A DNA stretch of 62,820 nucleotides, taken from positions 1-62,820 of the forward strand of contig NZ_LXQB01000030.1 in assembly GCF_004421185.1 (NCBI RefSeq), given 5' to 3'. The first letter of the stretch is position 1. Each line of letters opens with the position of its first letter. Positions 33,047 to 60,584 of the stretch are shown here, piece after piece. The DNA comes from Methylacidiphilum sp. Yel. Its GTDB lineage: Bacteria > Verrucomicrobiota > Verrucomicrobiia > Methylacidiphilales > Methylacidiphilaceae. Under the pieces are notes generated by a model. It did not search any database, was not told the DNA's origin, and saw only the letters and a program-made list of their open reading frames with translations. The translations under genes and the position numbers were made by a program.

Positions 33047-35680
33047 CTAAACTGGTGCTACTTTTGTCTTTTCTTCTCTAATGCCTAATGGATACTTTAT
33101 AGATAGTGCTTCCAGTGCTTGGCGAATGTCACCAGGGAAGGCTGCTTTGGCCGCATTCCATGCTGGAAAATCATTAGGAGTGGTTGTGGTTAACCAATAT
33201 TCTTCTGGCTCAATTTCTGCACGAATAACCCCGGATAGCGCATCAGGCCCCCTTCCCCTTAGATAAAAAGCTTCTCTCCATAGTTCTACTTCGCCATCTG
33301 TATGAACCCTAGCCGCAGATCGTAAATGAGTTAACAGATCCCTTTGACCTTGCGTGAGCTCTAGTTCTTTAACAGCATATTCAATATGATGTTCGCTTCC
33401 TTGAGGAAATAAAATCCAAGTGTCAACATTTTGTATGACAGCTTTCGCAACTGATGGATCATCCCCAAGATCCAGGATAGCTTGAGATTCTCCAATGACC
33501 GCACATCTTTTTTTCCTGTAGGTTTTAAAAGCTTCTATAATCAAATTGGCCGTAGCAGGATTGGATACATGTTGCCACATTTCTCCAAAAACCAAAATTT
33601 TAAAAACATTGGGGTTGGATAGAATAATATCTGACACGAATAAGACAGCCATTGGAATGAGAGCGGTTGCTAAATCCTTCTCCTTAGATATATATTCAAA
33701 ATCGAAATGGACTACTCTAGTTTTCCAATGAATTTGTGTGGTGCCATTAAACCAATTTTTATACCTACCATCAATAAAAGGCTTAAGGGATTCAGCCAAA
33801 AATTTGGCATCGGATCTATAAGCCATTTGGCGTGCTAAATCGTCTAGCGTTACATAAAAAGCTCTATTTTTTACAGCATTAGAGAAAGTTTGTCTTGTTA
33901 AAGATTCAAGAATGTTTTTTTCCTCGATGCTCAGGCTATTTCCTCTTTGAGAAGTAGCAAGTATTTCCAAACAACTGACCACCTTGGTTAGTTCATAATC
34001 TGAAGGCTCTGACAGTTCTCCGCTTTTATTCCTCCGAGTATAAACCTCAAAAGGGTTGAAACACTTTGGGATAGCCATGTCCAGTCTGATAGTTGTTCCA
34101 CCGCAAAGTTCAACGAGTCTATCATAACTGTTGCCTTTATCTAAAATCACAAGGATACTACCTTCCAAAAAATGTCTAAGAACAATCAGTTGTGCTAATG
34201 CACTTTTTCCAGACCCTTTTACTCCGCTTATGTAAAGCATGGAAGCACCTTCGTTTCTTTTGTCTTCCAAATCAAGAGGAACTAAACCTCCTGTCGTGTT
34301 TCCAAAAAGATAAACAGGTTTTTCATCGCTTTCTAATCCTCTGCAAATAGGCATCAAATCCGCTGCCATTTGCCCTCTTACAAGAAGAGGCCGAGTAAGC
34401 GGGGCATAAACGGCCGGCATTTCACTCATTAACACCGGTAAAAGGCTCGATTGTTCAATCCATCCTTTTGCCCTTGAGAGATCCCCAAAACGATTAAGCA
34501 ATATTTTGGCTCTTTTTTTGATCTCTTCTTTTTGTTTATGCCAAAAATGAATGGTAAGCTGGATTTGAAGAAGATCATCCTCTCCCGAACGAATGTCTCT
34601 TAACAGATTCTGAGCTTCTTCTATTTGCATCCATGCTTCGATATTTTGTATACCCGATTCCCTTCTATTTTCATGAGGTTTATAGAGCATATCAATAAGG
34701 TTTAAACCAAGGCGCATCCTTTGATCCGCCCAGTCTATACGTTTTCTCAGTTTTTCTAATTCTTTTATTTTATCGGTCTTCCTAACCACAAGACTTACAC
34801 GAACATCACGGAAGGGTAATCCTACGGTTAATTTTTCCATATCTCTGGGGCGCGTTTCCAAGGGTAATCCAACCATTGAGACCAATCCATGGTAGTAATC
34901 CCCAATTTGTAACATCTCTTTATCAATCCTTACTTCTTGAACCATCCAGGCATCCACAAAGGGCATCCTGTCGTAGTCGTAATTTACTTTCATTGTCTCT
35001 TCGACAGCTAATCCAGGATTCCACAGCCTAAAAAAATAATCCGCTATTTCATAAGCATCCAGAGGGAAAAACCGTGCAGAGGCTTTTCTTAATATTTCTG
35101 CAAAGACAGCTTCAGCTGCTTTTATACTTGAGATTGCTGAGTCAAATTGTGTTTTTGAGATCCTTTTTCTTACAGCTTCCGAACTCTCTCTACTCCCAAT
35201 ACGTAAAAACCATTCAGTTTTACTCAGTTGATTAGAGGGGGCAACCGTCAAAATCGTGTGGGTTTCAATCCTAACAAGCTTTCTTTTAGCCATCCGTTGA
35301 AAAAGTCTTTTTGCTTTTCTTTCTCTAAATTCTTTTAGCTGTTGATCAGAAGGAATACTAGCAAATGCTTCTAACAGAGGACCATAGTCTCCATTGCATG
35401 TAAAAATATGTTGGGTTTGTGAGATTTCATGAGGAAGCTGAGTAAGCAAAAGCCTAAGTTGATTCTGTAGATCGGAAAGACGAGAAGGACTGGCTATATC
35501 GGCTTGAGGAAAGTAGGTCCTGTAAAAGGCGTGAACCGCACCAAATTTGTCAATAATATATCTATCGTACAGTCCCGCATAAGGACACGCATCAGCCCAG
35601 TCTATGAAAGAAGGAATTCTCTTTTTAGTAAAGAGCTGACTCTTTACAAATAATCGTAAGGGGGAAACAAAATTTTTCAT
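33047..35680 (-). CDS. VirB4/TrbE-type T4SS ATPase
   Basis: VirB4 is the conserved ATPase that energises T4SS assembly and pilus production at the inner membrane. The 877-residue length is normal. An N-terminal CagE/TrbE/VirB domain (about 1-450) contains FYRTYFPQADI and later LSRAKGWIEQSSLLPVLMSEMPA. The ATPase domain has Walker A SGVKGSGKSALAQL near 485-495 and LVILDKGNSYDRL, typical of VirB4. The Walker B segment reads KILVFGEMWQHV near 697, where the usual Asp-Glu is Gly-Glu. Switch-like VIGESQAILDLGDD follows. It sits after VirB3- and VirB2-like genes, a conserved T4SS order. Confidence 0.88.
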   Translation of the reverse strand: MKNFVSPLRLFVKSQLFTKKRIPSFIDWADACPYAGLYDRYIIDKFGAVHAFYRTYFPQADIASPSRLSDLQNQLRLLLTQLPHEISQTQHIFTCNGDYGPLLEAFASIPSDQQLKEFRERKAKRLFQRMAKRKLVRIETHTILTVAPSNQLSKTEWFLRIGSRESSEAVRKRISKTQFDSAISSIKAAEAVFAEILRKASARFFPLDAYEIADYFFRLWNPGLAVEETMKVNYDYDRMPFVDAWMVQEVRIDKEMLQIGDYYHGLVSMVGLPLETRPRDMEKLTVGLPFRDVRVSLVVRKTDKIKELEKLRKRIDWADQRMRLGLNLIDMLYKPHENRRESGIQNIEAWMQIEEAQNLLRDIRSGEDDLLQIQLTIHFWHKQKEEIKKRAKILLNRFGDLSRAKGWIEQSSLLPVLMSEMPAVYAPLTRPLLVRGQMAADLMPICRGLESDEKPVYLFGNTTGGLVPLDLEDKRNEGASMLYISGVKGSGKSALAQLIVLRHFLEGSILVILDKGNSYDRLVELCGGTTIRLDMAIPKCFNPFEVYTRRNKSGELSEPSDYELTKVVSCLEILATSQRGNSLSIEEKNILESLTRQTFSNAVKNRAFYVTLDDLARQMAYRSDAKFLAESLKPFIDGRYKNWFNGTTQIHWKTRVVHFDFEYISKEKDLATALIPMAVLFVSDIILSNPNVFKILVFGEMWQHVSNPATANLIIEAFKTYRKKRCAVIGESQAILDLGDDPSVAKAVIQNVDTWILFPQGSEHHIEYAVKELELTQGQRDLLTHLRSAARVHTDGEVELWREAFYLRGRGPDALSGVIRAEIEPEEYWLTTTTPNDFPAWNAAKAAFPGDIRQALEALSIKYPLGIREEKTKVAPV

Positions 35681-35725: not shown

Positions 35726-36127
35726 CTAAGGGATATGTTCTTCAAATATTGATGCAGGGTTATAAGATAACTGAACATTAAAAAACCGGTGTTCATAAAT
35801 TTTGGGGACTCTATGATAATCGATGATAAAGCGTAAAAAATGTGGAGGTTTATCACTCAAAAAGACTCGAATAAATGCGTAGATTATTACGAAAACACAT
35901 AGGGAAAAATAAAAGTTGTGAGAATGATTATGAACAATGAGAAAGGCAGCAGCAGGAACGAAGATTAATGGACCTTCCAATCCCAAGAATGTTTCTTTTT
36001 CATTAATTAATCCCACAGATTTGCATACAGGTAGGCCATTTTTATCCCTTTCTTTGTCGGTATTTTGATTGAATGTTGAATAAGGTAAAGATGTTGTAAG
36101 AAAAAGATTAGATGGATTTTTCATCAT
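35726..36127 (-). CDS. VirB3-like inner-membrane protein
   Basis: The 133-residue product has a polar N-terminal region, a hydrophobic hairpin of two helices (GPLIFVPAAAFLIV and FYFSLCVFVIIYAFIRVF), and then SDKPPHFLRFIIDYHRVPKIYEH. A short two-helix protein encoded directly before VirB4 is the signature of VirB3/TrbD in T4SS operons. The start overlaps the stop of the VirB2-like gene (ATGATGA). The assignment rests mainly on size, topology and position. Confidence 0.65.
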   Translation of the reverse strand: MMKNPSNLFLTTSLPYSTFNQNTDKERDKNGLPVCKSVGLINEKETFLGLEGPLIFVPAAAFLIVHNHSHNFYFSLCVFVIIYAFIRVFLSDKPPHFLRFIIDYHRVPKIYEHRFFNVQLSYNPASIFEEHIP

Positions 36128-36591
36128 TTTGTGCTGTTCAATAAACCATGAACTAAATGAGGACCGGCATAGATGACCGCTGCACCTACTATTGCCCCTA
36201 TAGCAAAAGCAGGGCGTCTAAAAAAAAGCATTAAACCACCAAAAACTAGTAAAGATAGACTAATCCAATATAAATAATCTTGCAAAGAGCTTATAAATCC
36301 AGGAATTAGATTATCAGATTGATTATTGGAGCTACTCGAATTGTTTATAACATTAAAGTAGATTGATCCAAGTGTTTGGGCTGTTAGTAAAATTATCGAA
36401 CCAGCCACAAATGCTCCCCATCTTTCCATTTCGACAGTATGCAATGCATGATTGATCCCCAGATATACAGTATAAAGAGATAAGAAAGAAAGAAAAAGGG
36501 AAGACTGAAATCCCCATATTTGAGAAAGAGCCTGTTGCAGGGGATCACACAAATAACAACTCCAAAAGATTTCTCTGCTCATCAGAATCAT
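36124..36591 (-). CDS. VirB2/TrbC-like pilin, copy 2
   Basis: The 155-residue product has three hydrophobic segments. The C-terminal half (LYWISLSLLVFGGLMLFFRRPAFAIGAIVGAAVIYAGPHLVHGLL) is clearly related to that of the next gene upstream. VirB2/TrbC pilins have two such helices and are the main subunit of the T-pilus. Here the N-terminal half is longer and carries an extra membrane segment, so it may not be a processed pilin. The start could be ATG 36591 or 36582; the AAAGGA ribosome binding site fits the second better. Confidence 0.6.
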   Translation of the reverse strand: MILMSREIFWSCYLCDPLQQALSQIWGFQSSLFLSFLSLYTVYLGINHALHTVEMERWGAFVAGSIILLTAQTLGSIYFNVINNSSSSNNQSDNLIPGFISSLQDYLYWISLSLLVFGGLMLFFRRPAFAIGAIVGAAVIYAGPHLVHGLLNSTK

Positions 36592-36617: not shown

Positions 36618-36962
36618 TTATTGAGAAACAGCTCGAATTCCATTAGCAAGATGAGGTCCCCCATAGATTACTGCTGCAGCAACCAAGGCGCCAATTGTAA
36701 AAGCTGGTCTGTTAAAAAACCACATAACACCCCCAAATACCAATAAGCAAAGAGAAATAAGATAGCCGTAATCTGAAAAGGCCATCTGCAATTGTTGCAA
36801 TGTAGTAAATCCTTCAGCATCAGCTCCATTAAGAGGTGTTACATTTAGAACCCCGGTCCCTCCGGCACCATAAGAAATAGAAGAATTAATAACATAACAA
36901 CTAAAGATGCTTAATATAGCAATAATAAGTCGTAGCTGAAAAGAATAGTATCTTGTTTTCAT
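36618..36962 (-). CDS. VirB2/TrbC-like pilin, copy 1
   Basis: The 114-residue product begins with a signal-like segment (LRLIIAILSIFSCYVINSSISYG). The mature part has a short polar stretch, then two helices (YGYLISLCLLVFGGVMWFF and FTIGALVAAAVIYGGPHLANGI), the layout of VirB2/TrbC major pilins. It lies 26 bp before the related copy on the same strand. Two adjacent pilin-like genes are unusual. One may form the pilus and the other a modified or capping subunit, but this is inference. Confidence 0.65.
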   Translation of the reverse strand: MKTRYYSFQLRLIIAILSIFSCYVINSSISYGAGGTGVLNVTPLNGADAEGFTTLQQLQMAFSDYGYLISLCLLVFGGVMWFFNRPAFTIGALVAAAVIYGGPHLANGIRAVSQ

Positions 36963-40319: not shown

Positions 40320-41216
40320 ATGAGAACCAAACTAACTAAATCTTTGGATATTGTTAGTAATCAACAACAAAATTCTACTCACTATGAACAGAAATTCAAG
40401 GAAGAACTTCCACTGATTCTTAAAGCAAAAGCTGCAGATGCGGAAGCCTTGGATTGGCTTGCTGAACATTCTTTACCTATAAGACAGCAAGTAGCTCGTT
40501 TTTATTTACCAAATTTAGCTGATCAATGGCCTGATGCTGAAAACGTTGGATGGATTGGAATACTTGATGCTCTTGAAAAATGGAATGAGAATTTCAACAT
40601 TCGATTTTTAGATTATGCCATTCATCATGTGAGAAATAGAGTTAGAAATTATGCCAATGCTTGTAGAGCGACAGTTCGAAGACCAGCGTCGATGTACAGA
40701 TCGTATAGAAAAATAGAGAGATTTTTAGAACAAGGACTGACCGTTGAAGAGATCACTGAATTGTATGGATGTTCTCTCCATGACATGGAAAAAATACTCC
40801 ATGTATATTCTGGAGATTTAAGCCTTCATTTTTTTGTCTCAGACGACTCTGAAACGTCTCTTATTGACCTTTTGGTTTATCCTGACAATACAGCTCAAGA
40901 AGAAGAAAAAGAAGAAAAGCTGCAGAAGCTTTATATTGCGTTGTCTCATTTAGATGATATTTCTAGAAAAATAGTTTTATACTTCTTTGGCTTTGAAGGA
41001 GAAGGAGCTAAAAAAAGACCTACCGCCTGGATTGCTCAAAAATTAAGACTTTCTAGAAAGAAGGTTCTACAACTTTTAGAGAAATCTCTAAGTCAACTTA
41101 AAAGAGATTTTTTCCTTTTTGAAACTTTAAACATCCGACATCCCCTGCCTACTGGAATACCCTCTACAATGATAAACGTCAATTTTTATAACGACCCTTC
41201 ATTAGATTACGAATAA
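40320..41216 (+). CDS. Divergent sigma-70-family factor of the island
   Basis: The 298-residue product carries a region 2-like block: ADQWPDAENVGWIGILDALEKWNENFNIRFLDYAIHHVRNRVRNYANACRATVRRPASM. It has the GxxGhhxAhxxW core and the following helices of sigma-70 region 2.3-2.4. A C-terminal HTH (TAWIAQKLRLSRKKVLQLLEKSLSQLKRDFF) resembles region 4. Region 1.1 is absent. It overlaps the ParB-like gene by 1 bp (TAATG), so the two are translated together. It probably directs RNA polymerase to island promoters. It is distinct from the second sigma-like protein encoded at 60574. Confidence 0.75.
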   Translation: MRTKLTKSLDIVSNQQQNSTHYEQKFKEELPLILKAKAADAEALDWLAEHSLPIRQQVARFYLPNLADQWPDAENVGWIGILDALEKWNENFNIRFLDYAIHHVRNRVRNYANACRATVRRPASMYRSYRKIERFLEQGLTVEEITELYGCSLHDMEKILHVYSGDLSLHFFVSDDSETSLIDLLVYPDNTAQEEEKEEKLQKLYIALSHLDDISRKIVLYFFGFEGEGAKKRPTAWIAQKLRLSRKKVLQLLEKSLSQLKRDFFLFETLNIRHPLPTGIPSTMINVNFYNDPSLDYE

Positions 41217-42805
41217 TGAAAACGAAAATTCAAAAGTCTTCTTCTATCTCATTAATTCCAATTGAAAAAATTAAGTTATCCAAACAGAATCCAAGAAAAC
41301 AATTTCAAGAAGACAAAATCGAAGAACTTGCAGTAAGTATAGAAAAAATCGGACTCATTCATCCTATTCTAGTCAGACCAATAGAAGAAGACTATTATGA
41401 AATAGTTTCAGGAGAAAGAAGATGGAGAGCTTGTAAGAAACTGAACAAAGAATTTATTGAGTGTTTTATTCATCCGATGGATGAAAAAATGGCTCTTCAA
41501 ATACGAATAATTGAGAATATTCAAAGGCAAAATCTTAATCCTATAGAAGAGGCTGAAGGGTACAAAAATCTTTTGCAAGGAGGGATGACTATTGTGGAAT
41601 TATCCTCAGTCATAGGCAAGGGTAGAGATTATATCAGTCGAATGGTTACCCTATTGTCTCTACCTGAAGCGGCAAAAGAGGCGATAATATCTGGGAAATT
41701 GGCCAAACGCGCAGGATGGTATATAGCTAGAATACCTATACCTCAACTACGGGCTGTCGTTGCTTCTGAAGCGATCGCAAAATCTTTAACCGTTGCTCAA
41801 GTAGCCAAGATGGTGTTAGAAAATTTTCTTCTTGATTTAAGAAAAGCAAACTTCTCCATTTCAAAACCCGATTTGATTCCAGGTGTTCCAAGCTGTCTTG
41901 ATTGCTCTAAACGAACAGGCAATTCAGAAGATCTATTCGAGGATGTAAAAGATGATATGGTCTGTACAGATCCAGAATGTTTTGCAAAAAAGAGAGAAGC
42001 TGATTGGCGTTTTCAATGCTATAAAGCTCAAAGTGAAAACAGAGAAATACTTTTTGATGAAGAATCAATAAGACATTTTGTTCCAGGAACATCTAGACTT
42101 AAAATGGATTCTCCTTTTATAGATATAGATTCTACATGTGATTTGGATAAAAAAGAAAGAAAATGGGCATCCTTATTAGCTGAAGAATTAACTATAAAGG
42201 ATAGTAAGCCACTTTTGCATCAGTACTTGGCACGGAGCCCAATTGGAACCATCCATAGGCTTGTTAAAAAGGAAGATGCGCTTTTTATTTTACAAAGACA
42301 AGGGATTACCTTTGCAGCGAAAGCAATCAAAGAATTGAAAGAAAAGGAAGAGGCTAAAAGAGAGAGAAAAAAGAAAGAAGAATTTTTAAATTTGAGCTGT
42401 TCTTCTCTCATATCCAAAGTGTGTGATAAGATAAAAACAGAGAATATTGATCGATCCTATAATATCTTTTTATCTCTGGCACTACGAGTTCTACCAAGAG
42501 AGGTTTCTACCTTTGTATTCCAAAGACACAATTATAAGCTTGGCACAATGAAAGAATCTTTAAAAATGCTAGAGGATATCAATGAATTGGAGTCAAAGGC
42601 AATCCTATTAGATTTATTCCTTTCTACGGATCTTTTTTTAAATAGTTATAATGATCTTCCTCCTCATCTTATCAGCATTTGTAAGATTTTATCCATCGAT
42701 GTTTCTAAAGTTGTCGATGAAATACAATCTGTCAATCAGTCAAATTCATTTCTAATCAAGAAAAAAATAAGTTATTGTGGCACAGAAATCACTACAACAT
42801 CTTGA
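41216..42805 (+). CDS. ParB/Spo0J-family protein
   Basis: The 529-residue product has an N-terminal ParB domain: IPIEKIKLSKQNPRKQF, then HPILVRPI, YEIVSGERRWRACKKL and the ENIQRQNLNPIEEAEGY box II motif. The HTH follows (MTIVELSSVIGKGRDYISRMVTLLSLP). A four-Cys cluster (PSCLDCSKRTGN ... VCTDPECF) near 222-260, often seen in plasmid-borne ParB-like proteins, comes next. The C-terminal half (about 290-529) is unrecognised. No ParA partner is in the window, so partitioning is not certain. It could also regulate the island. Its 3' end overlaps the end of the opposing lipoprotein gene. Confidence 0.85.
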   Translation: MKTKIQKSSSISLIPIEKIKLSKQNPRKQFQEDKIEELAVSIEKIGLIHPILVRPIEEDYYEIVSGERRWRACKKLNKEFIECFIHPMDEKMALQIRIIENIQRQNLNPIEEAEGYKNLLQGGMTIVELSSVIGKGRDYISRMVTLLSLPEAAKEAIISGKLAKRAGWYIARIPIPQLRAVVASEAIAKSLTVAQVAKMVLENFLLDLRKANFSISKPDLIPGVPSCLDCSKRTGNSEDLFEDVKDDMVCTDPECFAKKREADWRFQCYKAQSENREILFDEESIRHFVPGTSRLKMDSPFIDIDSTCDLDKKERKWASLLAEELTIKDSKPLLHQYLARSPIGTIHRLVKKEDALFILQRQGITFAAKAIKELKEKEEAKRERKKKEEFLNLSCSSLISKVCDKIKTENIDRSYNIFLSLALRVLPREVSTFVFQRHNYKLGTMKESLKMLEDINELESKAILLDLFLSTDLFLNSYNDLPPHLISICKILSIDVSKVVDEIQSVNQSNSFLIKKKISYCGTEITTTS

Positions 42806-43644
42806 TCTGGTGGAGCAATCTTTTCTACTGTATGACCTTTGTATAACACTTTAACTTTTCGATTAGGTAAAAATTCGACCACCACAAATCCACCATTTGG
42901 AGTTTTAACGACAAAGTTCTGTCCTGGTTTCCCAAGAGGAACTTCTATCGTGGTTAATGCAGAATTATATTTTTTTAAATCTTGGTTTTTTGTATTTTTA
43001 ACGGCGAGTCCTTCTTCCCCAACAGTAATAAAGGATGATGTCTTAGTTACATTAAAGGTTGAAGGTTGGGCGATGGTTCCCATATCTGGATCTCCTACTA
43101 CAATGGAAGGAAAATTGGTAGAACTGTATTTTTTGCTTTGTGATTTTTTTTCTAACGCATTCATTAATGCGGCCTCTTTATACTCAGGAGAAGGAATGGA
43201 TTCTGCCAAGCTAGATTCCATTTTTTCTAGCCTATTTTTCATACTAACAAGATCTATTTCTACTCCATTATCTTTGCTTGGAGGGTTGTCTTCGTTGGGA
43301 TTAGGAACGATCGTTTGTCCATTATCCGCTCTGATATAAGGTTTTCCAGAGAGCTCAGCCTCTTCGAGAGTAGCCCAGTGTCCAGGATCAATAACGGTGC
43401 CTACATAATGTCCACCAATCCATTGTCCTGTTTTAGGATCTACTCTCGCTTTTGCCCATCCAGTATTTATAACCGGAAGAACATATGCAGGTTTGCTCCT
43501 GTCATAAACATCATATGGCTTAGTATAGTCGTAACTGTTTTGTATTAACGCTGGATCAATTGGCAAAGCTGTTTTTTTCTGCGAAACACAACCTATAACA
43601 AGAAAAACAACAAGAGCACAAAGTGTATATAATTTTATATTCAT
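42772..43644 (-). CDS. T4SS lipoprotein (TraV/VirB7-like position)
   Basis: The 290-residue product starts with a lipoprotein signal (TLCALVVFLVIGC, Cys19 as the lipid site). The middle is acidic and low in structure. The C-terminal domain (LTTIEVPLGKPGQNFVVKTPNGGFVVVEFLPNRKVKVLYKG) is beta-rich. A lipoprotein encoded after VirB10 fits the outer-membrane anchor of the T4SS core (VirB7 or TraV role), although it is much larger than VirB7. The assignment is by position and signal only. Confidence 0.6.
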   Translation of the reverse strand: MNIKLYTLCALVVFLVIGCVSQKKTALPIDPALIQNSYDYTKPYDVYDRSKPAYVLPVINTGWAKARVDPKTGQWIGGHYVGTVIDPGHWATLEEAELSGKPYIRADNGQTIVPNPNEDNPPSKDNGVEIDLVSMKNRLEKMESSLAESIPSPEYKEAALMNALEKKSQSKKYSSTNFPSIVVGDPDMGTIAQPSTFNVTKTSSFITVGEEGLAVKNTKNQDLKKYNSALTTIEVPLGKPGQNFVVKTPNGGFVVVEFLPNRKVKVLYKGHTVEKIAPPDQDVVVISVPQ

Positions 43645-43672: not shown

Positions 43673-44875
43673 TCATCTCCCATAATCAGCTTTTGAAATA
43701 TCCATATAACTTTTCAAAAAAACCCTAAATCTAGTTCCTGCTGGCACAAAAACATAGGGCTTGTATTGCTCAATATCTTGAGCAAGAATGTTCATAATCT
43801 GTTGCATTGCGTTAGTCCCTGCATACATTCCACCCAACATCATTGCCTGTTTTGCCCCATTGTAAGCTGGCTGACCATAAAGACCCCAAGGAGTGAGTCC
43901 ATATGGAGACATATAATAGTTAAAGGATTGATATTCCATGGCGTAGAGAAAAGCTTGACCCATGGCTGCTAAAATTGGTCCTAAAAGTTGTTTGCCATAT
44001 TCACTAACTCTGTATCCTTTGATTCCTTCTGTCCCATCAGTATGGAGGGCGACTCCTTGAATTGGTAATGATCTACCATCTTTAAAGATAATTTTGTCGA
44101 TATGGACCATCATTCTATCTCTTAAAGCTGTTCCTCCGCCTGAAGTGCCGATCAATCGATCACCAGGTTCAAGAAGAAGATTCCCTTGAAAGTAAAAGGG
44201 AAGCCAAACTGCCCCTACAACATCGACATCTGTGTTAGAACTAAAAGCAGAATTTACCAAGGCTGCTTCTATCATCTCACCTTGTGGGGAGAACGAGTTA
44301 ATATCAATATTTGCAAATGGTCCTTCTGAGCCTCCTTTATCCTCAGTTCCATTAGTTTCAAGGGCTGAAAGAGAAAGATTTCGGAAAAGATATCTTTTTC
44401 TTGCCCATTTTATGATCACCGGCTGATCTGAAGCTTGAGAATCCCTAGCCAAGGCTTTCTGATCGACTATACCGCGAGGAACAGGAGCAAGTCTGTTAGG
44501 AGGTTGTTGTTCTAAAACTCCAAGGGAACTTTTGTCTTTAGAAGTTGGAGGGGCTTTCACTTGGGTTGGAGGAAGGGTTGGCTCTGGAATCTTTTCTTTA
44601 GCCTGTACAATTTCTTCGGGAATAACCGCCTTTAGCTTGGATTTCTCCCCTTTTTGTACAATGACGTTCTTTTTTTGTTCTTGAGCCTCACTCTTTATCT
44701 TTTTCTCTGAATCTAAAGGTAGAACTTTTCCTCTAAAATAGGTATATCTTGCAGACTCAATAATCCTATACATCACCTCTGAGACAAGATGAATGGGTTT
44801 GATATTGTAAAAAGTGGCTACAGATAATATGCCTACAATGGTTAGAAAAAATTTGTTTTTAAGAAACTTTTTCAT
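43673..44875 (-). CDS. VirB10/TrbI-like T4SS core protein
   Basis: VirB10 spans the envelope from the inner membrane to the outer-membrane core complex. The 400-residue product has an N-terminal membrane segment (FFLTIVGILSVATFYNI), a Pro-rich linker (about 75-140) and a C-terminal domain with FYFQGNLLLEPGDRLIGTSGGGTALRDRMMVHIDKIIFKDGRSLPIQGVALHTDGTEGIKG, the conserved core of VirB10/TrbI. The late PYVFVPAGTRFRVFL also fits. The start overlaps the VirB9 stop (ATGA). This is one of the surest T4SS parts here. Confidence 0.88.
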   Translation of the reverse strand: MKKFLKNKFFLTIVGILSVATFYNIKPIHLVSEVMYRIIESARYTYFRGKVLPLDSEKKIKSEAQEQKKNVIVQKGEKSKLKAVIPEEIVQAKEKIPEPTLPPTQVKAPPTSKDKSSLGVLEQQPPNRLAPVPRGIVDQKALARDSQASDQPVIIKWARKRYLFRNLSLSALETNGTEDKGGSEGPFANIDINSFSPQGEMIEAALVNSAFSSNTDVDVVGAVWLPFYFQGNLLLEPGDRLIGTSGGGTALRDRMMVHIDKIIFKDGRSLPIQGVALHTDGTEGIKGYRVSEYGKQLLGPILAAMGQAFLYAMEYQSFNYYMSPYGLTPWGLYGQPAYNGAKQAMMLGGMYAGTNAMQQIMNILAQDIEQYKPYVFVPAGTRFRVFLKSYMDISKADYGR

Positions 44876-45843
44876 TTTTTACTTTCTTTCCAGATTAAAG
44901 AAAAAGGTTGATCTGGAGAATACGGAGGATTAGAGATAATCAAAAAGCCACTAGTCATTCCTCCAGGAGGTACAATTAACTTATTTAATGATACGTAATC
45001 GGGTATAAAGCGACTTTGCCCAATTGCTACCCTTAAAGTCGACTCATCTAGCCTTACCCGATATGGATAAAGATTTTTCCATGCGAAAGAAATTGCTAAT
45101 AGACCAGAAGAAAATCTGTAAAGATAATAATAATCAAAACCAGTAAGTTTTGAACGTTTAAATATTGCCATTCTGCTCACATCCATCGGCTTTAAAGAAC
45201 CTTCTCTAACCAAAAGATCATAGTTAGTGATAATTTGAGCCACACTTTTGACTGAAGAGATATATTCTTCTGTTCCTATGGAATAAGTAACAAGCTGTGT
45301 GGGCATTAAAGAACTATTTTTACTAAAAGGGCTAACTCGAATAAGGCTCAATGCCTTTTGGAAATCTGCTTCTACAAAAATATGATAAATTCTCGTTCTG
45401 TTTCCTTGAAAAAAAACTAAAAGAGAGGTATCACCCGTGGTATCGAGAGATCTTAGTATTAGTTTTACACCCTGTTTACTTATATGAATCAATTTAGAGT
45501 CTCCAATCTCCCATCCAACTATTGGCTCTGAAAATTCTATGGCTAGCGGATATCCTGGAGAAATTCGAAGAATTTCTACCTGACCGTCTTCCTGATGAAT
45601 CATTTTAACCTTTTGTTGAAGAAACTGGAGCAGTTCATCTTCAGATAATTCTTCTGCCTTTTTACCATTGATAATAACAGGGGGAGCATCTTCTTCTGCA
45701 ATTTGAGGTGAAGGATTTGAATTTATGTTTCCGTTCTGAAACGATGCATTGAGAGCATTTCTAGAGTCAAGCGGATCGATTTGTTGACTCTTGGCAATGG
45801 AGGCAAACAGTAGTATCAAAAAGACAAAGAGTTTTCTTTTCAT
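44872..45843 (-). CDS. VirB9/TrbG-like T4SS core protein
   Basis: The 323-residue product has a signal peptide (KLFVFLILLFASIAKS). The mature N-terminal part contains VEILRISPGYPLAIEFSEPIVGWEIGDSKLIHI, the beta-sandwich start of VirB9/TrbG/CagX proteins. The C-terminal part includes YYYLYRFSSGLLAISFAWKNLYPYRVRLDESTLRVAIG, similar to the usual C-terminal domain that binds VirB7. It overlaps VirB8 and VirB10 by 4 bp on each side (ATGA overlaps), so the three are translated together. Confidence 0.75.
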   Translation of the reverse strand: MKRKLFVFLILLFASIAKSQQIDPLDSRNALNASFQNGNINSNPSPQIAEEDAPPVIINGKKAEELSEDELLQFLQQKVKMIHQEDGQVEILRISPGYPLAIEFSEPIVGWEIGDSKLIHISKQGVKLILRSLDTTGDTSLLVFFQGNRTRIYHIFVEADFQKALSLIRVSPFSKNSSLMPTQLVTYSIGTEEYISSVKSVAQIITNYDLLVREGSLKPMDVSRMAIFKRSKLTGFDYYYLYRFSSGLLAISFAWKNLYPYRVRLDESTLRVAIGQSRFIPDYVSLNKLIVPPGGMTSGFLIISNPPYSPDQPFSLIWKESKK

Positions 45844-46628
45844 TTTTCGGAGCCTCTTTTCTTTGAAGGTAAAATAGGTTCTTTTTTCAATATTTCAGGC
45901 GAACCAACTATTGGTACTGTATACGACCAGATTTTTTCTGCTTCTGCTCCCTGAAACTCTTCTACTCCTTCGAGTCTTAATCCTAAAGGATTCATCGGTG
46001 TGTTGCGGCCTTCACTGATATAAAAGAGAATAACAACTGATTCACTTGTGATATCTGGCATACCATTTTGAATTTGGTAACAAGCCCGATCACATTTTCC
46101 GGCAACTATTAAATAGCTTGGCAATTTTGGAGAGTTATATTTACGCACTTCTCTCAAATTCCATACAATTCTTTTTCCATTTCCACCATTCATCGCCAGT
46201 GGAACATAGACTTCTTTAAATGCGGCAGCGACCTTGGGAGAAACGCGATCGGCAACTGTTGAAAGAGAATAAGAGCCAGGGCTTACTTCATAAAGAGCTT
46301 TACCCACTTCCTGAATAAAAGAAAAAATCATGTTTTCATTTAATTTAAATATTTCAGTTTTTGGCCAAATAACATATCCTGGTAGATCGACAATCATTTG
46401 AGTTGGCTCATGAATCTTCAGATAAAGTGCAATACCAAGAAATATGATCGCTATAGCTTGTAATAAACAGAAAAGCAGAAGCCAACTGTTTACAACAGCT
46501 AGATCTTCCTTCCATTCCCATATGGTTCTTAAAAAAGCGGGTAGCCTTATTCTTTGAACACCGTATAATCCATCCCTTTCTCTTTCAGGAGGATTGACCT
46601 CATGTGGGTTTCGAAAAACAAAACTCAT
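45840..46628 (-). CDS. VirB8/TrbF-like inner-membrane protein
   Basis: The product has about 262 residues: a cytoplasmic N-terminus of about 45 residues ending in a basic/aromatic stretch (LPAFLRTIWEWKEDLAVVNSW), one membrane helix (LLLFCLLQAIAIIFLGIALYL), and a periplasmic NTF2-like domain. The topology and position (followed by VirB9 and VirB10 with ATGA overlaps) identify it as VirB8/TrbF, the assembly nucleator. ATG 46628 (MSFVFRNPHEVN) is preferred over TTG 46637. The gap to the divergent ATPase gene is only about 60 bp. Confidence 0.75.
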   Translation of the reverse strand: MSFVFRNPHEVNPPERERDGLYGVQRIRLPAFLRTIWEWKEDLAVVNSWLLLFCLLQAIAIIFLGIALYLKIHEPTQMIVDLPGYVIWPKTEIFKLNENMIFSFIQEVGKALYEVSPGSYSLSTVADRVSPKVAAAFKEVYVPLAMNGGNGKRIVWNLREVRKYNSPKLPSYLIVAGKCDRACYQIQNGMPDITSESVVILFYISEGRNTPMNPLGLRLEGVEEFQGAEAEKIWSYTVPIVGSPEILKKEPILPSKKRGSEK

Positions 46629-46667
46629 AATAATCAAAGTATTAATAGGCCATTACAGAAAATATTT

Positions 46668-46689: not shown

Positions 46690-48747
46690 ATGCAAATGAA
46701 ACATTGTCTTCCTATTCAAAACGATTTTGAAAACTTTCTTCTCAAGGAACGGCTGATAGTTGCAGAAAATCTTAAAGAGTGGAAAAAATCTGACCCATTC
46801 TTTGATCTAGAAAAAGCGATCTTACGATTTTCTACCCTTTTTTCATGGGAAAAGTGGTCGGAATCATTCACCAATCGTAATGGATGGCCACCCCTATATC
46901 CTGCTGATAGAGATCATCCCTTGCCCCCTTCAGCTTTCTATTCTGTAGGCAAGAAGCTAGAAAAAGAATTCAATGCGATAATCTTATGGGACAGTCCATT
47001 TTATGTCATCGGTATTCTCAATCCTTTTCGCTTACATGAGGTTGAAATTTTTGCTGCAATTAATTTCCCAGATAAACCAAGAATTTTTTATCTCTTACAT
47101 CCTAGCGATTTGGCCAATCTTTTTCTGAAAAGGGAAAGAGGGGTAGAAGGGTTTCCTGATTGGGAGCAAGAAGATAAGGAAAGGTGGTTAAAACTATTAA
47201 GGTTAGAATCATCATTGTATCCACGAGTAGCTGATATTCTTGAACAAATTCTTTTTGGATCCGAACCAAAAATTATTATTCCAGAAGGAGCTGTACAAGC
47301 TTGTGCAGCCATAAAAGGATTTGAAAATGCTCTTTTATGGAGGAAGTCTCCTACCTGCTCTTGGGTTCTTACACCAGAAGCCTTTAATTCTAAACTAGAA
47401 GATCAACTGATTGAAGCTTTAAAAACAAAAATCAAACTTGTGATTTGTTCTCCTGGTTATTTCCAAAAACTATTTCTTCTGGTTGAAAAAGAAAACAAAA
47501 TTAAAGGAATTTTACCAGGAGATCCTCTTCACGTAAGGGAATGGCCTCAAGTAGATTTAGGTCATTTTAACGAAACAGGAATCACTCTTTATCATGCTAT
47601 CATGAGCAGTGCCATTGATATGGGAGCCAGCGATATTTCCCTGGAACCTAAAGATCATAATGTGCGAGTGCGTTTCCGCATAGACGGTGATTATTATGAA
47701 CAAGCTCCCCTAAGCAGACTTCAATATCAGATCCTATTGGATCGAATTAAGCTTTTTGGAAATATGGCTGCCGATCAGAAAGGGATATTTCAAGACGGAA
47801 GTAGTAGTTATCAGTACAAAGGGATACGTTATGACCAACGGTATAGTATTGTAATTGGCCAAGGGATGGAAGAGCATACAGCCATTCGCATTTTTTCTTC
47901 TCGGATTCCAACCCTTGATGATTTGAATTTGCCGCCAATGGAGCATTCCTTTCTTTTGTGGTTTTTAGCGAATGGACAGGGGATGTTTATCTCCGCGGGA
48001 CCAACAGGAAGTGGAAAGACAACTACTCTTTATGCTATGCTACAGCATATTAGTTCTCCTAGAAAAAAAATAATTACCATTGAGAACCCTATTGAAAAAC
48101 ATTTTCCCGATGCCATGCAAATCGAAGTTAGAGAAAAAGCCGGAATTACATTTGCCACTGCTCTGAGAGGAATAGTTCGACAAGATCCAGATATTATTAT
48201 GATTGGGGAAATACGTGATATGGAAAGTGCTCGGATTGCTATTGATTCAGCATTAACTGGCCATCTCGTATTTTCCTCTATTCATGCAACTGATCCTGTG
48301 GGGGTAATAGAAAGAATGGTTCAGAGTTTTGGCATTGATAGGCTTGCTGTATCTTATGCTCTGAAATTGGTTGTTTCCCAAAGGCTCGTTTCAAAATTAT
48401 GCCCTTATTGTAAAAAAATAAGAAAAGCCACGACAGATGATTTAAAATATTTTCCTAATTGTCAGGTTGCAGAGCCTGTCGTTGCAGAAGCTAGTGGTTG
48501 TCAAGCATGTAGAGGAACAGGGACGGCTGGAAGGATGCCGATTCTTGAACTTCTTCCATTCGATAGTGAAATTATTTCTTTAATTGAAAATGGTGCAAGC
48601 CCTAATCGAATACGAGCTCATAATGAAAGTAGAGGATTTAAGCCATTAGCTATTCAAGCTACAGAGCTCTTTTTTACAGGAGTGATATCCAAAGAAGAAG
48701 CTTTGCTCCTACTTTCTTCTCGCTCATATTCTAGCATATTCTGTTGA
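46690..48747 (+). CDS. GspE/PilB-type secretion ATPase
   Basis: The product has about 685 residues. The C-terminal half is a complete type II secretion/type IV pilus ATPase: the N2 motif GASDISLEPKDHNVRVRFRIDGDYYEQA, Walker A SAGPTGSGKTTTLYAML near 435, the Asp box VRQDPDIIMIGEIRDMESA near 500, the His box GHLVFSSIHATDPVGVIERM, and the four-Cys element CPYCKKIRK ... CQACRG near 571-607. The N-terminal 300 residues are unrecognised. In a T4SS context it occupies the place of VirB11, a related ATPase that lacks the Cys4 element. ATG 46690 (or 46696) is chosen because the upstream extension runs into the divergent VirB8 gene. Confidence 0.85.
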   Translation: MQMKHCLPIQNDFENFLLKERLIVAENLKEWKKSDPFFDLEKAILRFSTLFSWEKWSESFTNRNGWPPLYPADRDHPLPPSAFYSVGKKLEKEFNAIILWDSPFYVIGILNPFRLHEVEIFAAINFPDKPRIFYLLHPSDLANLFLKRERGVEGFPDWEQEDKERWLKLLRLESSLYPRVADILEQILFGSEPKIIIPEGAVQACAAIKGFENALLWRKSPTCSWVLTPEAFNSKLEDQLIEALKTKIKLVICSPGYFQKLFLLVEKENKIKGILPGDPLHVREWPQVDLGHFNETGITLYHAIMSSAIDMGASDISLEPKDHNVRVRFRIDGDYYEQAPLSRLQYQILLDRIKLFGNMAADQKGIFQDGSSSYQYKGIRYDQRYSIVIGQGMEEHTAIRIFSSRIPTLDDLNLPPMEHSFLLWFLANGQGMFISAGPTGSGKTTTLYAMLQHISSPRKKIITIENPIEKHFPDAMQIEVREKAGITFATALRGIVRQDPDIIMIGEIRDMESARIAIDSALTGHLVFSSIHATDPVGVIERMVQSFGIDRLAVSYALKLVVSQRLVSKLCPYCKKIRKATTDDLKYFPNCQVAEPVVAEASGCQACRGTGTAGRMPILELLPFDSEIISLIENGASPNRIRAHNESRGFKPLAIQATELFFTGVISKEEALLLLSSRSYSSIFC

Positions 48748-49721: not shown

Positions 49722-49748
49722 AGATTTAAAAGAAAAGGAGGATGCACA

Positions 49749-50417
49749 ATGAACGAACAAAACAAACGAGTAGAATTAACCGCACATCAGGGAGGAGAAG
49801 AAAAGCCTTTGGCGCATATTCAATCATTTGATCATATTTCAATGAACATATCCCCTATGGATATTATGGATGAGAGAACAAACAAAACAACAAATAGAAA
49901 CAAAGAAAGCGATAACAGATCCCTTCCTGTCCAGCAAAACTCTATCTCAAAGAATTCCATTGGAGCCTTATCCAATATTCAGACACTAAATGCGATAGGC
50001 TTGACTAGAGCTTCTGCTAAAGAACAGCTGAAGCAGGGAATAGATTCAGCTTCAAACCCTCAAAAATGGGATGGAATGTGTACCTGTAGGTGTCTAGAAA
50101 GAAATGACCAAAGGTTAAGCTCTTTGGATTGGAAAAGAATTGATGAAAAAGCCAATAGTATGGTGAATCAAAAAACAACAACCCCCCATTCCCTACCTTC
50201 CTATTGGAATATTCCTGGAATAGGAAAAGGGCCTTTTCTACAACAAGAATTTTGGCAGAAAGCATTTGATGAGAAACAAAACCAGAAGTCTCTTGAAAAA
50301 GAAAAGGAAGAGGCCCCAATTTTTAATCCTGAAGGCTTAAATCCTTCGCTAATACAAGGAATTTATCACTCAGATACTCTACTTGAACAAAAGAAAATAC
50401 AGGAAAAGATTCGATAA
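49749..50417 (+). CDS. Hypothetical polar protein of the island
   Basis: The 222-residue product is hydrophilic and rich in Asn, Lys, Glu and Gln, with no membrane segment. A short Cys motif (MCTCRCLERND) lies near residue 113. The strong ribosome binding site AAAGGAGG stands 8 bp before ATG 49749, in contrast to the first genes of operons in the island, which often lack one. It is probably co-transcribed with the preceding gene (27 bp away). I recognise no family. Confidence 0.55.
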   Translation: MNEQNKRVELTAHQGGEEKPLAHIQSFDHISMNISPMDIMDERTNKTTNRNKESDNRSLPVQQNSISKNSIGALSNIQTLNAIGLTRASAKEQLKQGIDSASNPQKWDGMCTCRCLERNDQRLSSLDWKRIDEKANSMVNQKTTTPHSLPSYWNIPGIGKGPFLQQEFWQKAFDEKQNQKSLEKEKEEAPIFNPEGLNPSLIQGIYHSDTLLEQKKIQEKIR

Positions 50418-50441
50418 ACAAAAATTGTAATTTAATTTATT

Positions 50442-51029: not shown

Positions 51030-51056
51030 TAGTTTTAACAAAATTCTTTTAATTTT

Positions 51057-51069
51057 CTATTTATAATAG
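51057..51069. promoter_or_regulatory. AT-rich inverted repeat at a divergent start
   Basis: CTATT-TAT-AATAG, a 5-bp inverted repeat, ends one base before the ATG at 51071, in the 41-bp gap between divergent genes. It resembles the box at 59166-59180 and contains -10-like sequence on both strands. Confidence 0.4.
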
Positions 51070-51070
51070 T

Positions 51071-52525: not shown

Positions 52526-54655
52526 ATGAAACTATTCCAAAAAATCAGAGAGACTTTAGTAGGAACGATAGGCCCACAATATGTAAAACCAAGAGAATCT
52601 CTTTCTGCTAAAGTCAAAGGAAATTATTGGTCACGGCATCCAATAAGTTCTTCGGATTTTGGAAAATTGTATTTTCGAGTTGAAACAGAACCGCAGGAGC
52701 TAACGGATGAATCTGGTAATCCTCTAACAATTAAAGACTTATTTTCCCACATGAGCATTTTGGGTGGATCTGGTGCTGGAAAAACTCGATTCGTTCTGAC
52801 TCAAGTTTTGGAAAGCCTTTTTAGAGCTACTGATCTTAGAGATTCTAAAGAAAAAGCAGAATTAAAATTTTCGGGATTTATAATGGATGGAAAATGCGAA
52901 CTGACTGAAATGGTATTATGGCTTGCCAAGAAATATGATAGAGAAAAAGATGTTTTGCTTTTTGGGCCTGAACATGATCTTGCTCTAGATCCATTTAATA
53001 ATCCTGATTCTCTACCATCAGAGCTTGCTGATTTAATGATTACTTTAAAACAAGCAGTTGATGATGGGAAGACAAGCCAAGATCCTTTCTGGGATGCCGC
53101 TGGACGGAAACTGTTTAGCTCCATTTTTCAACTTCATCGAGAACTTGTTATAGCTGCTCAAAAAGGGATTATTGAAGACTGCCCTCCTCCAATGTCTTTT
53201 CCTCTCCTCAATCTTCTTGTCATGGATCGAGGACAGCCTGCAAACCAAAGCCAAATATCTTCAGCGGAAAGTGTTTTAAGAGAAAATAAAGAGAAAGTTT
53301 TTCAGGGATTGGAAAAAATCAATCGCCTTATCAACAGGATCGAAAATCTGGTCCAAGAATGGAAAAAGAAAATTAAAGACATATATGTTGCGAATAAAAA
53401 TGCGCCGGAAAATGAAAATGAAGAAGAGAGGGAAAAGAGACTATGGAAAAAAATCGAAACAGAAAAAATTTTAAAATATTTAAATGGTGAGCAAGCTTCG
53501 AAATCGCATTTTGGTTCTTCTAGCATTCTTTCCTTATTCAATGGCTTGCGTTCTTTTCGTGCTGCTTTTTTTTCTTATTCTCAAAATGATGAATTTCACA
53601 ACAATCTTCTTTTAGTGTGCTCGGAACTAACAGATCGACTAAAAAAACTTTTAAAATCTTTTAAATTTGGAGTTCTTCCCAACCTTGAACTTTGGGAAAG
53701 CTGCCTAAGTCTTATTGATGAGATAGATCAATTATTGGCTTTATCTAATTTGATAAACAATATTGAAATCCCTGCTCCAGAATATGGTCCTTTGCAAAAG
53801 TGGTTAAATTCTTACGAAAAAATCCTCCATCACTATGGAAAGGATCCCTATTCAGATGAAGTTTACCTTTATTTCAAAGGTGAATATCTAAACATTGCCA
53901 ATGAAAGAACCTCAGGTTCCATTGGTATGACAGTTTCGGTTCTCACATCACTGATGACTCAGCCGCCTTTTGATCGAATGGTAAGTCCCAAAGGAAACCT
54001 CAATTTTGCAGATATCATTGATCAGGGAAAGATCCTCGTATTGGATATGAATTTTTCTAGATGGAGAAATGCAGCAAAAGTGGCAAGCATTCTATTAAAA
54101 CTCGATTTCTTTCGATCAGTCCTTTCAAGAAAGCAACTAAAAATTGATGGCAGACCAATTAATCAACAAAGACCTGTAATTTATCTCTGCGATGAATTTG
54201 CTACAGTAGCAACCACAGGAGATTGGACTGGAGAAAGAGGTTTTTTTGATAAGGCAAGAGAATATAAATGTGGTTGTATTATTTCTTTTCAGTCTTTAGC
54301 TGTTTTGGAATCCCGAATGATTAAATCTGAAATTGAAGCTATTCTAACAAATACAGCAACGATCATTTTTCTAAGAAACCCTCATATGGAAACCAACGAT
54401 TATGCCTCTAGTCTTTTTGGTGAAATTGAAAGAAGTGACGGTTATCTATATAGAGGAACACAAGAAATTCTTTTTGATTTATCAAAACCCATCGCCCATC
54501 AAGATTTTCAAATCCAATTCCGCAAAGAGCCGATTTATCCTCCTTATGTCTTTTCTAGACTTAAAGATGGAGAAGCGATTGTGAAACTTCACCCTCGGTT
54601 TGGGAAAAAAAGCATAAAAAGAGTTCAATTTCTGCTTCACCTTATCCCTAGATAG
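52526..54655 (+). CDS. VirD4/TraG-type coupling ATPase without N-terminal membrane anchor
   Basis: Type IV coupling proteins bring DNA or protein substrates to the channel. The 709-residue product has Walker A GGSGAGKTRFVLTQVL near residue 85, LLFGPEHDLALDPFNN, and Walker B VIYLCDEFATVATTGDW near 551, followed by REYKCGCIISFQSLAVLES and TNTATIIFLRN, all typical of the VirD4/TraG/TraD family. A long helical insertion with coiled-coil character (about 245-400) separates the two. The usual N-terminal membrane helices are missing: the protein begins MKLFQKIRETLVG and has no hydrophobic run before the ATPase. It leads an operon with three small genes and a TrbJ-like gene. Confidence 0.82.
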   Translation: MKLFQKIRETLVGTIGPQYVKPRESLSAKVKGNYWSRHPISSSDFGKLYFRVETEPQELTDESGNPLTIKDLFSHMSILGGSGAGKTRFVLTQVLESLFRATDLRDSKEKAELKFSGFIMDGKCELTEMVLWLAKKYDREKDVLLFGPEHDLALDPFNNPDSLPSELADLMITLKQAVDDGKTSQDPFWDAAGRKLFSSIFQLHRELVIAAQKGIIEDCPPPMSFPLLNLLVMDRGQPANQSQISSAESVLRENKEKVFQGLEKINRLINRIENLVQEWKKKIKDIYVANKNAPENENEEEREKRLWKKIETEKILKYLNGEQASKSHFGSSSILSLFNGLRSFRAAFFSYSQNDEFHNNLLLVCSELTDRLKKLLKSFKFGVLPNLELWESCLSLIDEIDQLLALSNLINNIEIPAPEYGPLQKWLNSYEKILHHYGKDPYSDEVYLYFKGEYLNIANERTSGSIGMTVSVLTSLMTQPPFDRMVSPKGNLNFADIIDQGKILVLDMNFSRWRNAAKVASILLKLDFFRSVLSRKQLKIDGRPINQQRPVIYLCDEFATVATTGDWTGERGFFDKAREYKCGCIISFQSLAVLESRMIKSEIEAILTNTATIIFLRNPHMETNDYASSLFGEIERSDGYLYRGTQEILFDLSKPIAHQDFQIQFRKEPIYPPYVFSRLKDGEAIVKLHPRFGKKSIKRVQFLLHLIPR

Positions 54656-58243: not shown

Positions 58244-59161
58244 TTATTCATATATTCCATTAAAGCGAATTCTGCAAAGATTATTAATTTCTGAAAGGAG
58301 ATTTCTTACTTCGGATGCTAAAGCCATAGGGTTTTGATCTAGGTACTTTCTATCTTGAGGTAAAGGAAGAAGTCCTGTTAACAAAAATTGACTCCATTCT
58401 AAAAGAGTCATATTTTGATTACGAATGCGCCAACAGTCGCTTATCAATCGAACAAGCTCTGGAGGAGAAGGTTTTTTCTTTACACCTGGATGCCTTCTCA
58501 GTTGATTGGCGGCATTTATAAAGATTTCACAAAATTTTTCAGAAGCCCATGGATTGTGCATTTTTATAAGTTTTGTTTCCATTTCAACTGAGGGCCAGTT
58601 CATATAGATAACCCGACATCTTCTTAACAAAGCTTCAGTAGCATCTCGTAGATCATTTTTTGTGATTACAATTAAAAGGTTAGTATTGTTAGCCTTCAAT
58701 TCGCCTCCCAACTGAGGGACAAATATTTGAGATTCGTTAATAAAATCGAGTAAAAAACTGTCAACGGAAACATCGGCTTTATCTAGTTCGTTGAGAATAA
58801 GCACCGTTTTGTTTTCTATAGAAGAAGTTATAGATAGAGGAATGATACCAGGAACAAGTGTTCCATCGATGGATTTATCCCGCAGAAGTTCTTCTTTTCC
58901 ACATCCTGGAAAAAATTGAAACAATATATGTTTTGCCCCAATGGCTTTAGCAATTGCCTTACCCAAAAACGTTTTTCCAATACCTGGAGGACCATCCAAC
59001 AACACCGCAGAAAGCGCAGTCTCCTCCCCCATGGCATGAACTGCACATTCTATCATTCTTATAGCGGCAATATCTGTAACAATATAGTCTTCTGGAAGTA
59101 TCAAACTTGAAACGTAGTCTTCTTTAGACAAGGAAAAAAAAGGATCCACATTTTTTTTCAT
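58244..59161 (-). CDS. MoxR-type AAA+ ATPase
   Basis: The 305-residue product has Walker A LLDGPPGIGKTFLGKAIA near 55-70, Walker B KTVLILNELDKADVSVDSFLLDFI near 110-130, sensor 1 NTNLLIVITKNDLRDATEALLRRCRVIYMNWP with the Arg finger, and a C-terminal lid (PSPPELVRLISDCW). This fits the MoxR/AAA_5 chaperone group that remodels or loads metal centres or protein complexes. MoxR genes usually have a VWA partner, and none is seen here. It is divergent from a small gene with only a 19-bp gap, filled by a perfect inverted repeat. Confidence 0.8.
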   Translation of the reverse strand: MKKNVDPFFSLSKEDYVSSLILPEDYIVTDIAAIRMIECAVHAMGEETALSAVLLDGPPGIGKTFLGKAIAKAIGAKHILFQFFPGCGKEELLRDKSIDGTLVPGIIPLSITSSIENKTVLILNELDKADVSVDSFLLDFINESQIFVPQLGGELKANNTNLLIVITKNDLRDATEALLRRCRVIYMNWPSVEMETKLIKMHNPWASEKFCEIFINAANQLRRHPGVKKKPSPPELVRLISDCWRIRNQNMTLLEWSQFLLTGLLPLPQDRKYLDQNPMALASEVRNLLSEINNLCRIRFNGIYE

Positions 59162-59426: not shown

Positions 59427-60584
59427 ATGATAGAACTTAATGGATTTGCTCTTTTAGATAAAAAAGAGATTGAATTAATTACTGGCAAGGAAAAAGACAG
59501 ATTTTTCTGGCTCCCTCTTCATTCTCTCAATTATGAAGAAATTTTAAAAATACAAAATATAATTCGGAAAAATAAATACCTTAGAAACAAACCAGAACAG
59601 TTTTTAAGAAAACAAAAAAACGCTGCTTTTGACATCAAAGAAAAGGCTCTTCTTTGTTCGATGCTGTTTGACATTTGTACAAACAAACGATGGGAAGAAA
59701 ATCTTTGTTTTATAAATGATTCAGCCAAAGAGAAAATTCAGAAAAAAACGCGATCAGGTATAGCATCTTCAGCTGAAGTGCTCTATTTGGATAAAGGAAT
59801 GTTAAAATGGATAAAAAGCTTTTCGCAAAAAGTGCATAATTCTTTATCTGATCAAGAACGAAAAGAGCTTGGAAATCTTTTTCAAGGACTTGCTAACATA
59901 TATGCTGAAAAACATGAAAAAATATTACAGTATCTCTCTTTCTTTTCTTCTATAAAAGAAGACTATGATAAAGATGCTTCTCCTTTTGCCTCTAAAGGCT
60001 ATTATAGAGCAAAAACAGATTCAAGAGGAAGAATCATTGCTAATGAAAAAGGTGAAATTCTTCTTGAATATGTTCAACCCATAGCTCCAATTCCTGTAAG
60101 CCAATACATTCTTAAATTTTTTGGCTCAAAACCAGAAAAGGCTCAAACTGCTCAAAATAATGTCCGATTTTTACAATCGTTGGATCTATTTTGTGGAGAG
60201 GTTGTTGGAGGAATAAATAACTTTTTTGATAATTATTTAGCAGCCGTCTCAAATAACGAAATCAAAGATCCTTACGCAAAAGCCTTTGCCATTTTTTATT
60301 GGACATTAAAAGATTTTTTAGAATCAAGAACTGGCAATTATTCTTCAATCAAAGAGAAGTTTATATTTAATTACAAAACAAAAAAAATTTTATATGAGCT
60401 ATTCTTGAAAGAAAAAAATTCTCTTTTTAAAAAAGAAATAGAAGATATCGAAAACAGAGAGAGCAAACATTTTGAAATAATATCTCAGAACCTTAATCGT
60501 TTAAAAATCATCCCTTCAACCCTATTTTTTCACTTAGAGAAGAATAATGAAGTAATAAAAAAAGAAAAATTTTATGAAAAATAA
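59427..60584 (+). CDS. Hypothetical protein upstream of second sigma-like gene
   Basis: The 385-residue product is basic, rich in Lys, Phe and Asn, and helical. Landmarks include GFALLDKKEIELITGKEKDRFFW at the start and FASKGYYRAKTDSRGRIIANEKGEILLEYVQPIAPIPV in the middle. No motif is recognised. It overlaps the sigma-like gene by 11 bp, so the two are translated together, which may mean they work together (for example as sigma and co-factor); that is inference only. Confidence 0.5.
   Translation: MIELNGFALLDKKEIELITGKEKDRFFWLPLHSLNYEEILKIQNIIRKNKYLRNKPEQFLRKQKNAAFDIKEKALLCSMLFDICTNKRWEENLCFINDSAKEKIQKKTRSGIASSAEVLYLDKGMLKWIKSFSQKVHNSLSDQERKELGNLFQGLANIYAEKHEKILQYLSFFSSIKEDYDKDASPFASKGYYRAKTDSRGRIIANEKGEILLEYVQPIAPIPVSQYILKFFGSKPEKAQTAQNNVRFLQSLDLFCGEVVGGINNFFDNYLAAVSNNEIKDPYAKAFAIFYWTLKDFLESRTGNYSSIKEKFIFNYKTKKILYELFLKEKNSLFKKEIEDIENRESKHFEIISQNLNRLKIIPSTLFFHLEKNNEVIKKEKFYEK

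Follow-up and report, generated by a model that had tools for sequence, protein, structure and literature searches.

Type IV secretion systems (T4SSs) and type IV pili or type II secretion systems (T2SSs) are usually treated as distinct machines, with only a distant ATPase superfamily as common ground. VirB11 hexamers dock below the central hexamer of VirB4, and F-type T4SSs function although they have no VirB11 (PMC12857230). In structure, DotB falls between VirB11 and PilT (PMC6153414). DotB and TraJ (MPF_I, type IVB) are T4SS motors related to pilus ATPases, but they are PilT-like and short and have no N1 domain, and the TraJ sequences that we compared lack the four-Cys element discussed below.

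There are also GspE/PulE-family ATPases in the MPF_F operons of Aromatoleum EbN1 plasmid 1, pSTY, Acinetobacter sp. TGL-Y2 and Paraburkholderia fungorum. These genes lie between a lytic transglycosylase gene and a thioredoxin-like gene, in most cases beside traL-traE-traK, and no VirB11 is annotated beside them. Their products fall on the GspE/PilB side of the ATPase tree as a clade of their own (support 100/99). The ATPase core starts 19-55 residues from the N-terminus, so by length they have no N1 domain, and the Cys pairs are missing in three of the four. Neither GspE nor PilB comes up in the 2025 FEMS review of T4SS nomenclature, and among open-licence papers we found nothing about a T4SS of Methylacidiphilum or about the ATPases of the MPF_F plasmids.

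The ATPase gene and its family

The window is the whole stretch of 62,820 nucleotides from Methylacidiphilum sp. Yel that was analysed. The host belongs to a group of acidophilic methanotrophs. The window carries a T4SS island that includes a gene for a GspE/PilB-type ATPase (Table 1). The start of the reading frame at 46690 is common to the near relatives and the stop is at 48747. The protein is a T2SSE core with an N2 domain and a Walker A motif, and residues 299-670 match the Pfam family PF00437 (T2SSE) with E=1.7e-83. Searches against the PDB gave PilF, GspE and PilB at E<=1e-58, with Thermus PilF and Vibrio GspE at the top (~1e-64). The catalytic motifs are intact throughout the host family, Methylacidiphilaceae, where identity is 56-97%. 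The four-Cys (zinc) element is kept in all members from the host family and from family f3, and one pair is degraded in the distant homologue L033. None of the VirB11, TraJ, PilT and CpaF sequences that we compared has the Cys pairs. The original prediction that this gene has the full T2SS/type IV pilus ATPase signature (the PF00437 match, Walker A and both CxxC pairs), and that VirB11 lacks the four-Cys element, is therefore borne out.

The NCBIfam models rank in the order GspE (305 bits against an equivalog cut-off of 630), PilB (284/676), PilT (158), TraJ (85/368), DotB (67.5/463) and VirB11 (44/250), and the ATPase is under every equivalog cut-off. Because its scores are so far under the GspE and PilB cut-offs, function cannot be transferred from GspE or PilB. 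The ATPase is like the GspE/PilB assembly ATPases in its N1-N2-RecA arrangement, Walker A motif, four-Cys element and tree position, but differs from them in these low scores, in being linked to a T4SS, in having no pilus/T2SS partners and in an extra middle region of ~145 residues. VirB11 and TrbB share with it the hexameric secretion ATPase superfamily and a presumed place in the machine, but they have neither the N1 domain nor the Cys element, their branch lies outside in the tree, and the VirB11 model gives the lowest of the scores above.

Table 1. Features of the ATPase gene and of the T4SS island in the window, with the plasmid-borne ATPase genes used for comparison
Feature	Position	Strand	Evidence or remark
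GspE/PilB-type ATPase gene, T4SS island	46690..48747	+	685 aa; PF00437 and order of NCBIfam scores
N1 domain, residues ~9-151, divergent GSPII_E_N/MshEN fold	46714..47142	+	AF2, Foldseek, VIA, HHalign
Middle region, residues ~152-296	47143..47577	+	Low pLDDT; weak HHalign to PilB N-termini
N2 and RecA-like ATPase core	47584..48699	+	PF00437 match in genome search; PDB matches
Walker A GPTGSGKT, residues 437-444	47998..48021	+	Invariant among members
Four-Cys element C571/C574 ... C604/C607	48400..48510	+	Two CxxC pairs, CPYC and CQAC
VirB8-position protein, divergent neighbour	45840..46637	-	Position, single N-terminal hydrophobic segment, family-conserved
VirB9-like protein	44872..45843	-	NCBIfam VirB9 E=0.096, sub-threshold; operon position
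VirB10/TrbI protein	43673..44875	-	PF03743 TrbI 3.7e-19; NCBIfam VirB10 6e-6; PDB 6gyb VirB10 E=0.039
Lipoprotein-like gene in VirB8-9-10 operon	42772..43644	-	N-terminal ..VIGCVS, lipobox-like; no family match
VirB4/TraC ATPase	33047..35680	-	PF19044 6.7e-22; TraC-F-type 133 bits
VirD4-type coupling protein	52526..54655	+	PF02534 5.7e-10; PF12696 4.8e-9
VirB2-like pilin gene, first of tandem pair	36124..36591	-	TrbC/VirB2 PF04956 3.7e-4, under gathering score
VirB2-like pilin gene, second of tandem pair	36618..36962	-	Resembles first by eye
Sigma-70-like gene in island	40320..41216	+	Conserved in host family
ParB gene in island	41216..42805	+	Conserved in host family
AAA (MoxR-like) gene	58244..59161	-	Homologue adjoins ATPase in L033 (G020)
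Sigma-region-2 gene	60574..61551	+	Homologue adjoins ATPase in L033 (G020)
GspE/PulE-type ATPase genes in plasmid MPF_F tra operons	L119 11833-13113; L126 9989-11431; L127 7986-9620; L130 7887-9383		

The N-terminal region

The N-terminal 300 residues had been regarded as unknown. This was partly right: residues ~152-296 have no assigned domain, but residues ~9-151 are a divergent GspE/PilB N1 domain. An AF2 model of the N-terminal part alone has a pLDDT of ~90 across most of residues 11-150, and the first 19 Foldseek matches of the domain are all N-domains of PilF-GSPII, XpsE, MshE or PilB. VIA alignment gives Z-scores of 9.6 to PilF-GSPIIA and 8.9 to XpsE-N, in comparison with 3.4 or less for unrelated structures. 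There is no Pfam match to this region and a sequence search of the PDB with the N-domain was also without a match. HHalign, which uses sequence only, aligns the N-terminus of the ATPase with the PilB N-termini of other genomes over 131-136 columns (E 5e-6); control alignments with six other island families gave E values of 0.15-0.74.

The full-length AF2 model is poor (pLDDT 51). In the middle region there is a weak HHalign match to PilB N-termini (39-41 columns, 38%, E 3.3e-4), and this region is possibly the C-terminal half of a second N1 domain. A tandem second N1 domain at residues 176-275 was considered and not adopted, the HHalign match being weak. The MshEN domains, which have the same fold as residues 9-151, carry the c-di-GMP motif RLGxx(L/V/I)(L/V/I)xxG...LxxxLxxQ (PMC5013675). 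We looked for this motif in the N1 domain of the ATPase and it is absent, and control by c-di-GMP through N1 was rejected on this ground.

Phylogeny of the ATPase

A careful tree was built from 35 ATPase cores, and VirB11 and CpaF were placed in a separate, quick tree. The island ATPases of three families form one clade in the careful tree (100/100). This clade is on the GspE/PilB side, separated from PilT at 100/99, and it stands apart from the order's own PilB. In the quick tree the VirB11/CpaF branch lies outside and is separate at 100. The suggested phylogeny joins the ATPase to GspE/PilB and to neither PilT nor VirB11. A single origin of the island and MPF_F plasmid ATPases was not rejected by the AU test (p=0.37). 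The apparent sister of the island clade (84/89) is an Armatimonadetes sequence, L048; the neighbouring genes that were checked include none of a T4SS.

The T4SS island

The core set of T4SS genes in the island includes VirB4, VirD4 and VirB10. The ATPase gene and the VirB8-9-10 operon are on different strands, and the original prediction of a divergent arrangement was right as to orientation. Its naming of the three genes holds to different degrees: well for VirB10 (PF03743, 3.7e-19), weakly for VirB9 (E=0.096) and for VirB8 by position alone. The VirB8-position protein has no Pfam, NCBIfam or PDB match, a profile search of the PDB included, and the profile of the VirB9-position protein also has no match in the PDB. 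On the other side of the ATPase gene, at 48795-52474, there are several conserved genes without a family match.

The best NCBIfam model for the island VirB4 is the F-type TraC, yet the score is 133/567 bits. TraU, a hallmark of MPF_F, has no match in the genome, and the control was positive in E. coli. This indicates that the island is not a canonical MPF_F system.

The genome has no pilus, T2SS or VirB11 genes within reach of the profiles

The genome that contains the window is 99.98% complete. A PF00437 profile search of the whole assembly gave one match, which is the island ATPase, and four finished genomes of the same genus (2.2-2.5 Mb) likewise have one PF00437/T2SSE-family gene each. There is therefore no VirB11 in the genome, as predicted from the window, and a hidden VirB11 elsewhere is ruled out. 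Profiles for T2SSF (GspF/PilC), secretin, the A24 prepilin peptidase and PilM gave no match in the genome, and the positive controls worked. Within the reach of these profiles there is therefore no canonical pilus or T2SS for the ATPase to drive. The search for pilC, pilM and gspF genes that might have tied it to a pilus accordingly found neither such genes nor linkage to a pilus locus.

The host-family genera g2 and g3 (G005-G012) have adjacent pairs of low-scoring PF00437 genes (~24-76 bits; for example, G006:C1:2287830-2289387). These pairs sit at another locus and are absent from the genus of the window.

The ATPase occurs together with the island VirB4

The sample consisted of 62 genomes of the order Methylacidiphilales. 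Eighteen have the island VirB4. Sixteen of these also have the ATPase, which is never found alone. The two genomes with VirB4 only, G027 and G031, are incomplete drafts (87% and 77% complete). Fisher's test, which makes no correction for kinship, gives p=5.6e-13 for the pairing and 7e-5 outside the host family. The pairing spans four families, and by this genomic measure the ATPase is dedicated to the T4SS. Three of the families also keep true pilus ATPases (ordinary PilB), which rules out the island ATPase as the motor of their pili. G010, a host-family genome that is 99% complete, has lost both the ATPase and the island VirB4, and the rest of its genus bears the island.

The other host-family genomes examined share the gene order near the ATPase, with T4SS core genes at ~48-98% identity. 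In G024, which belongs to another family, the ATPase and VirB3-VirB4 are about 6 kb apart on the same contig, with the ATPase upstream of the pilin-VirB3-VirB4 genes, the VirB2-like pilin family recurs beside VirB4, and a separate T2SS-type ATPase is found elsewhere beside a T2SSF gene. In G020 the ATPase and VirB4 share one contig, ~35 kb apart, and in G014 a TrbL/VirB6 gene is followed directly by the ATPase. The family-wide synteny and the association with VirB4 in four families speak against linkage to a separate pilus locus. The co-occurrence is evidence of a shared locus and not of mechanism. The island ATPase of G024 is split into two frames (L158 5498-7547; G024:C1:200497-202546), by a frameshift or an assembly error.

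Role of the ATPase

We consider it likely that a divergent chromosomal T4SS of the Methylacidiphilaceae has the ATPase as its dedicated hexameric motor, of GspE/PilB type and in the place of VirB11. We infer that it does the job of VirB11, although F-type T4SSs work without this protein and a 'VirB11 slot' may therefore not need filling. It would form a hexamer, dock to VirB4 by analogy with the VirB11 hexamers and have a role in the handling of pilin or substrate. The ring would most likely sit beside VirB4 at the cytoplasmic base and could drive the extraction and assembly of pilin and/or the switch to substrate transfer via VirD4/VirB4. The N1 domain may be what docks the ATPase to one of the T4SS membrane subunits.

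The original prediction was that a pilus-type motor has been recruited into a T4SS. The lack of VirB11 and of linkage to a pilus locus, the co-occurrence with VirB4 and the position on the GspE/PilB side of the tree all agree with this. It is not a unique case: the MPF_F plasmids carry a GspE/PulE-type ATPase and DotB/TraJ are PilT-like, so that pilus-type motors in T4SSs are already a known kind, or nearly so. The plasmid ATPases resemble the island ATPase in being on the GspE/PilB side and inside a T4SS operon, but the island ATPase has the N1 domain and the zinc motif. What is new here is a separate, well-supported, T4SS-linked clade that has the GspE/PilB architecture in full, including both the N1 domain and the zinc motif.

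Three other explanations have to be weighed. The ATPase could be an accessory motor of the island, such as one that retracts the pilus or serves a clade-specific sub-assembly, with the T4SS running on VirB4 and VirD4 alone as F does. The function of F-type T4SSs without VirB11 (PMC12857230) fits this, as do the likeness of the island VirB4 to F-type TraC and the MPF_F plasmids, in which the GspE/PulE-type ATPase beside the lytic transglycosylase and thioredoxin genes is optional. Against this, the island ATPase is kept as consistently as VirB4 across four families, a sign of a core role, and it is of the assembly type (GspE/PilB) and not the retraction type (PilT). We regard an accessory role as unlikely.

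Much more improbable is that the genus once had a type IV pilus or T2SS and that the ATPase is a remnant of it, kept in the island by chance. The genus has lost all the pilus genes tested and the protein does have a true GspE/PilB architecture, but relatives in other families hold a real PilB and the island ATPase at separate loci, the ATPase and the island are missing together in G010, the motifs are intact in the family at 56-97% identity and the order's own PilB falls outside the island clade. A simple leftover pilus gene was rejected on the strength of the synteny, the joint absence in G010 and the lack of partners. The conserved genes without a family match at 48795-52474 could, alternatively, encode another, so far undescribed membrane machine that the ATPase powers, such as a pseudopilus-like or DNA-uptake system. 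This too has very little to recommend it, because the genome has no T2SSF platform, prepilin peptidase or secretin and VirB8/9/10-like genes flank the ATPase on its other side.

There is also a wider claim, to which we give even chances: that a separate T4SS lineage of the Verrucomicrobiota swapped VirB11 for a complete GspE/PilB motor, with its N1 docking domain and zinc element, and that this motor is essential for pilus assembly or transfer. T4SS and pilus/T2SS motors would then be interchangeable as whole proteins. A T4SS lineage that depends on a full GspE/PilB motor, and whose cells have no pili, lets one ask how the motor acts without the GspF/PilC platform and whether there is a general answer to the 'missing VirB11' puzzle of F-type systems.

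Other features of the island

The tandem VirB2-like pilins at 36124-36591 and 36618-36962 have similar C-terminal halves. In G020 the ATPase (L033 7535-11336) is beside homologues of the AAA (58244) and sigma-like (60574) genes of the window, which suggests that the three genes belong together. There are two sigma-70-like genes and a ParB gene (40320-42805 and 60574-61551), conserved in the family, within what is a fixed chromosomal T4SS island, and this seems unusual. Finally, the window that holds the island also has a tmRNA gene at 8904-9281, with the tag ANEELALAA, which is a possible integration site.
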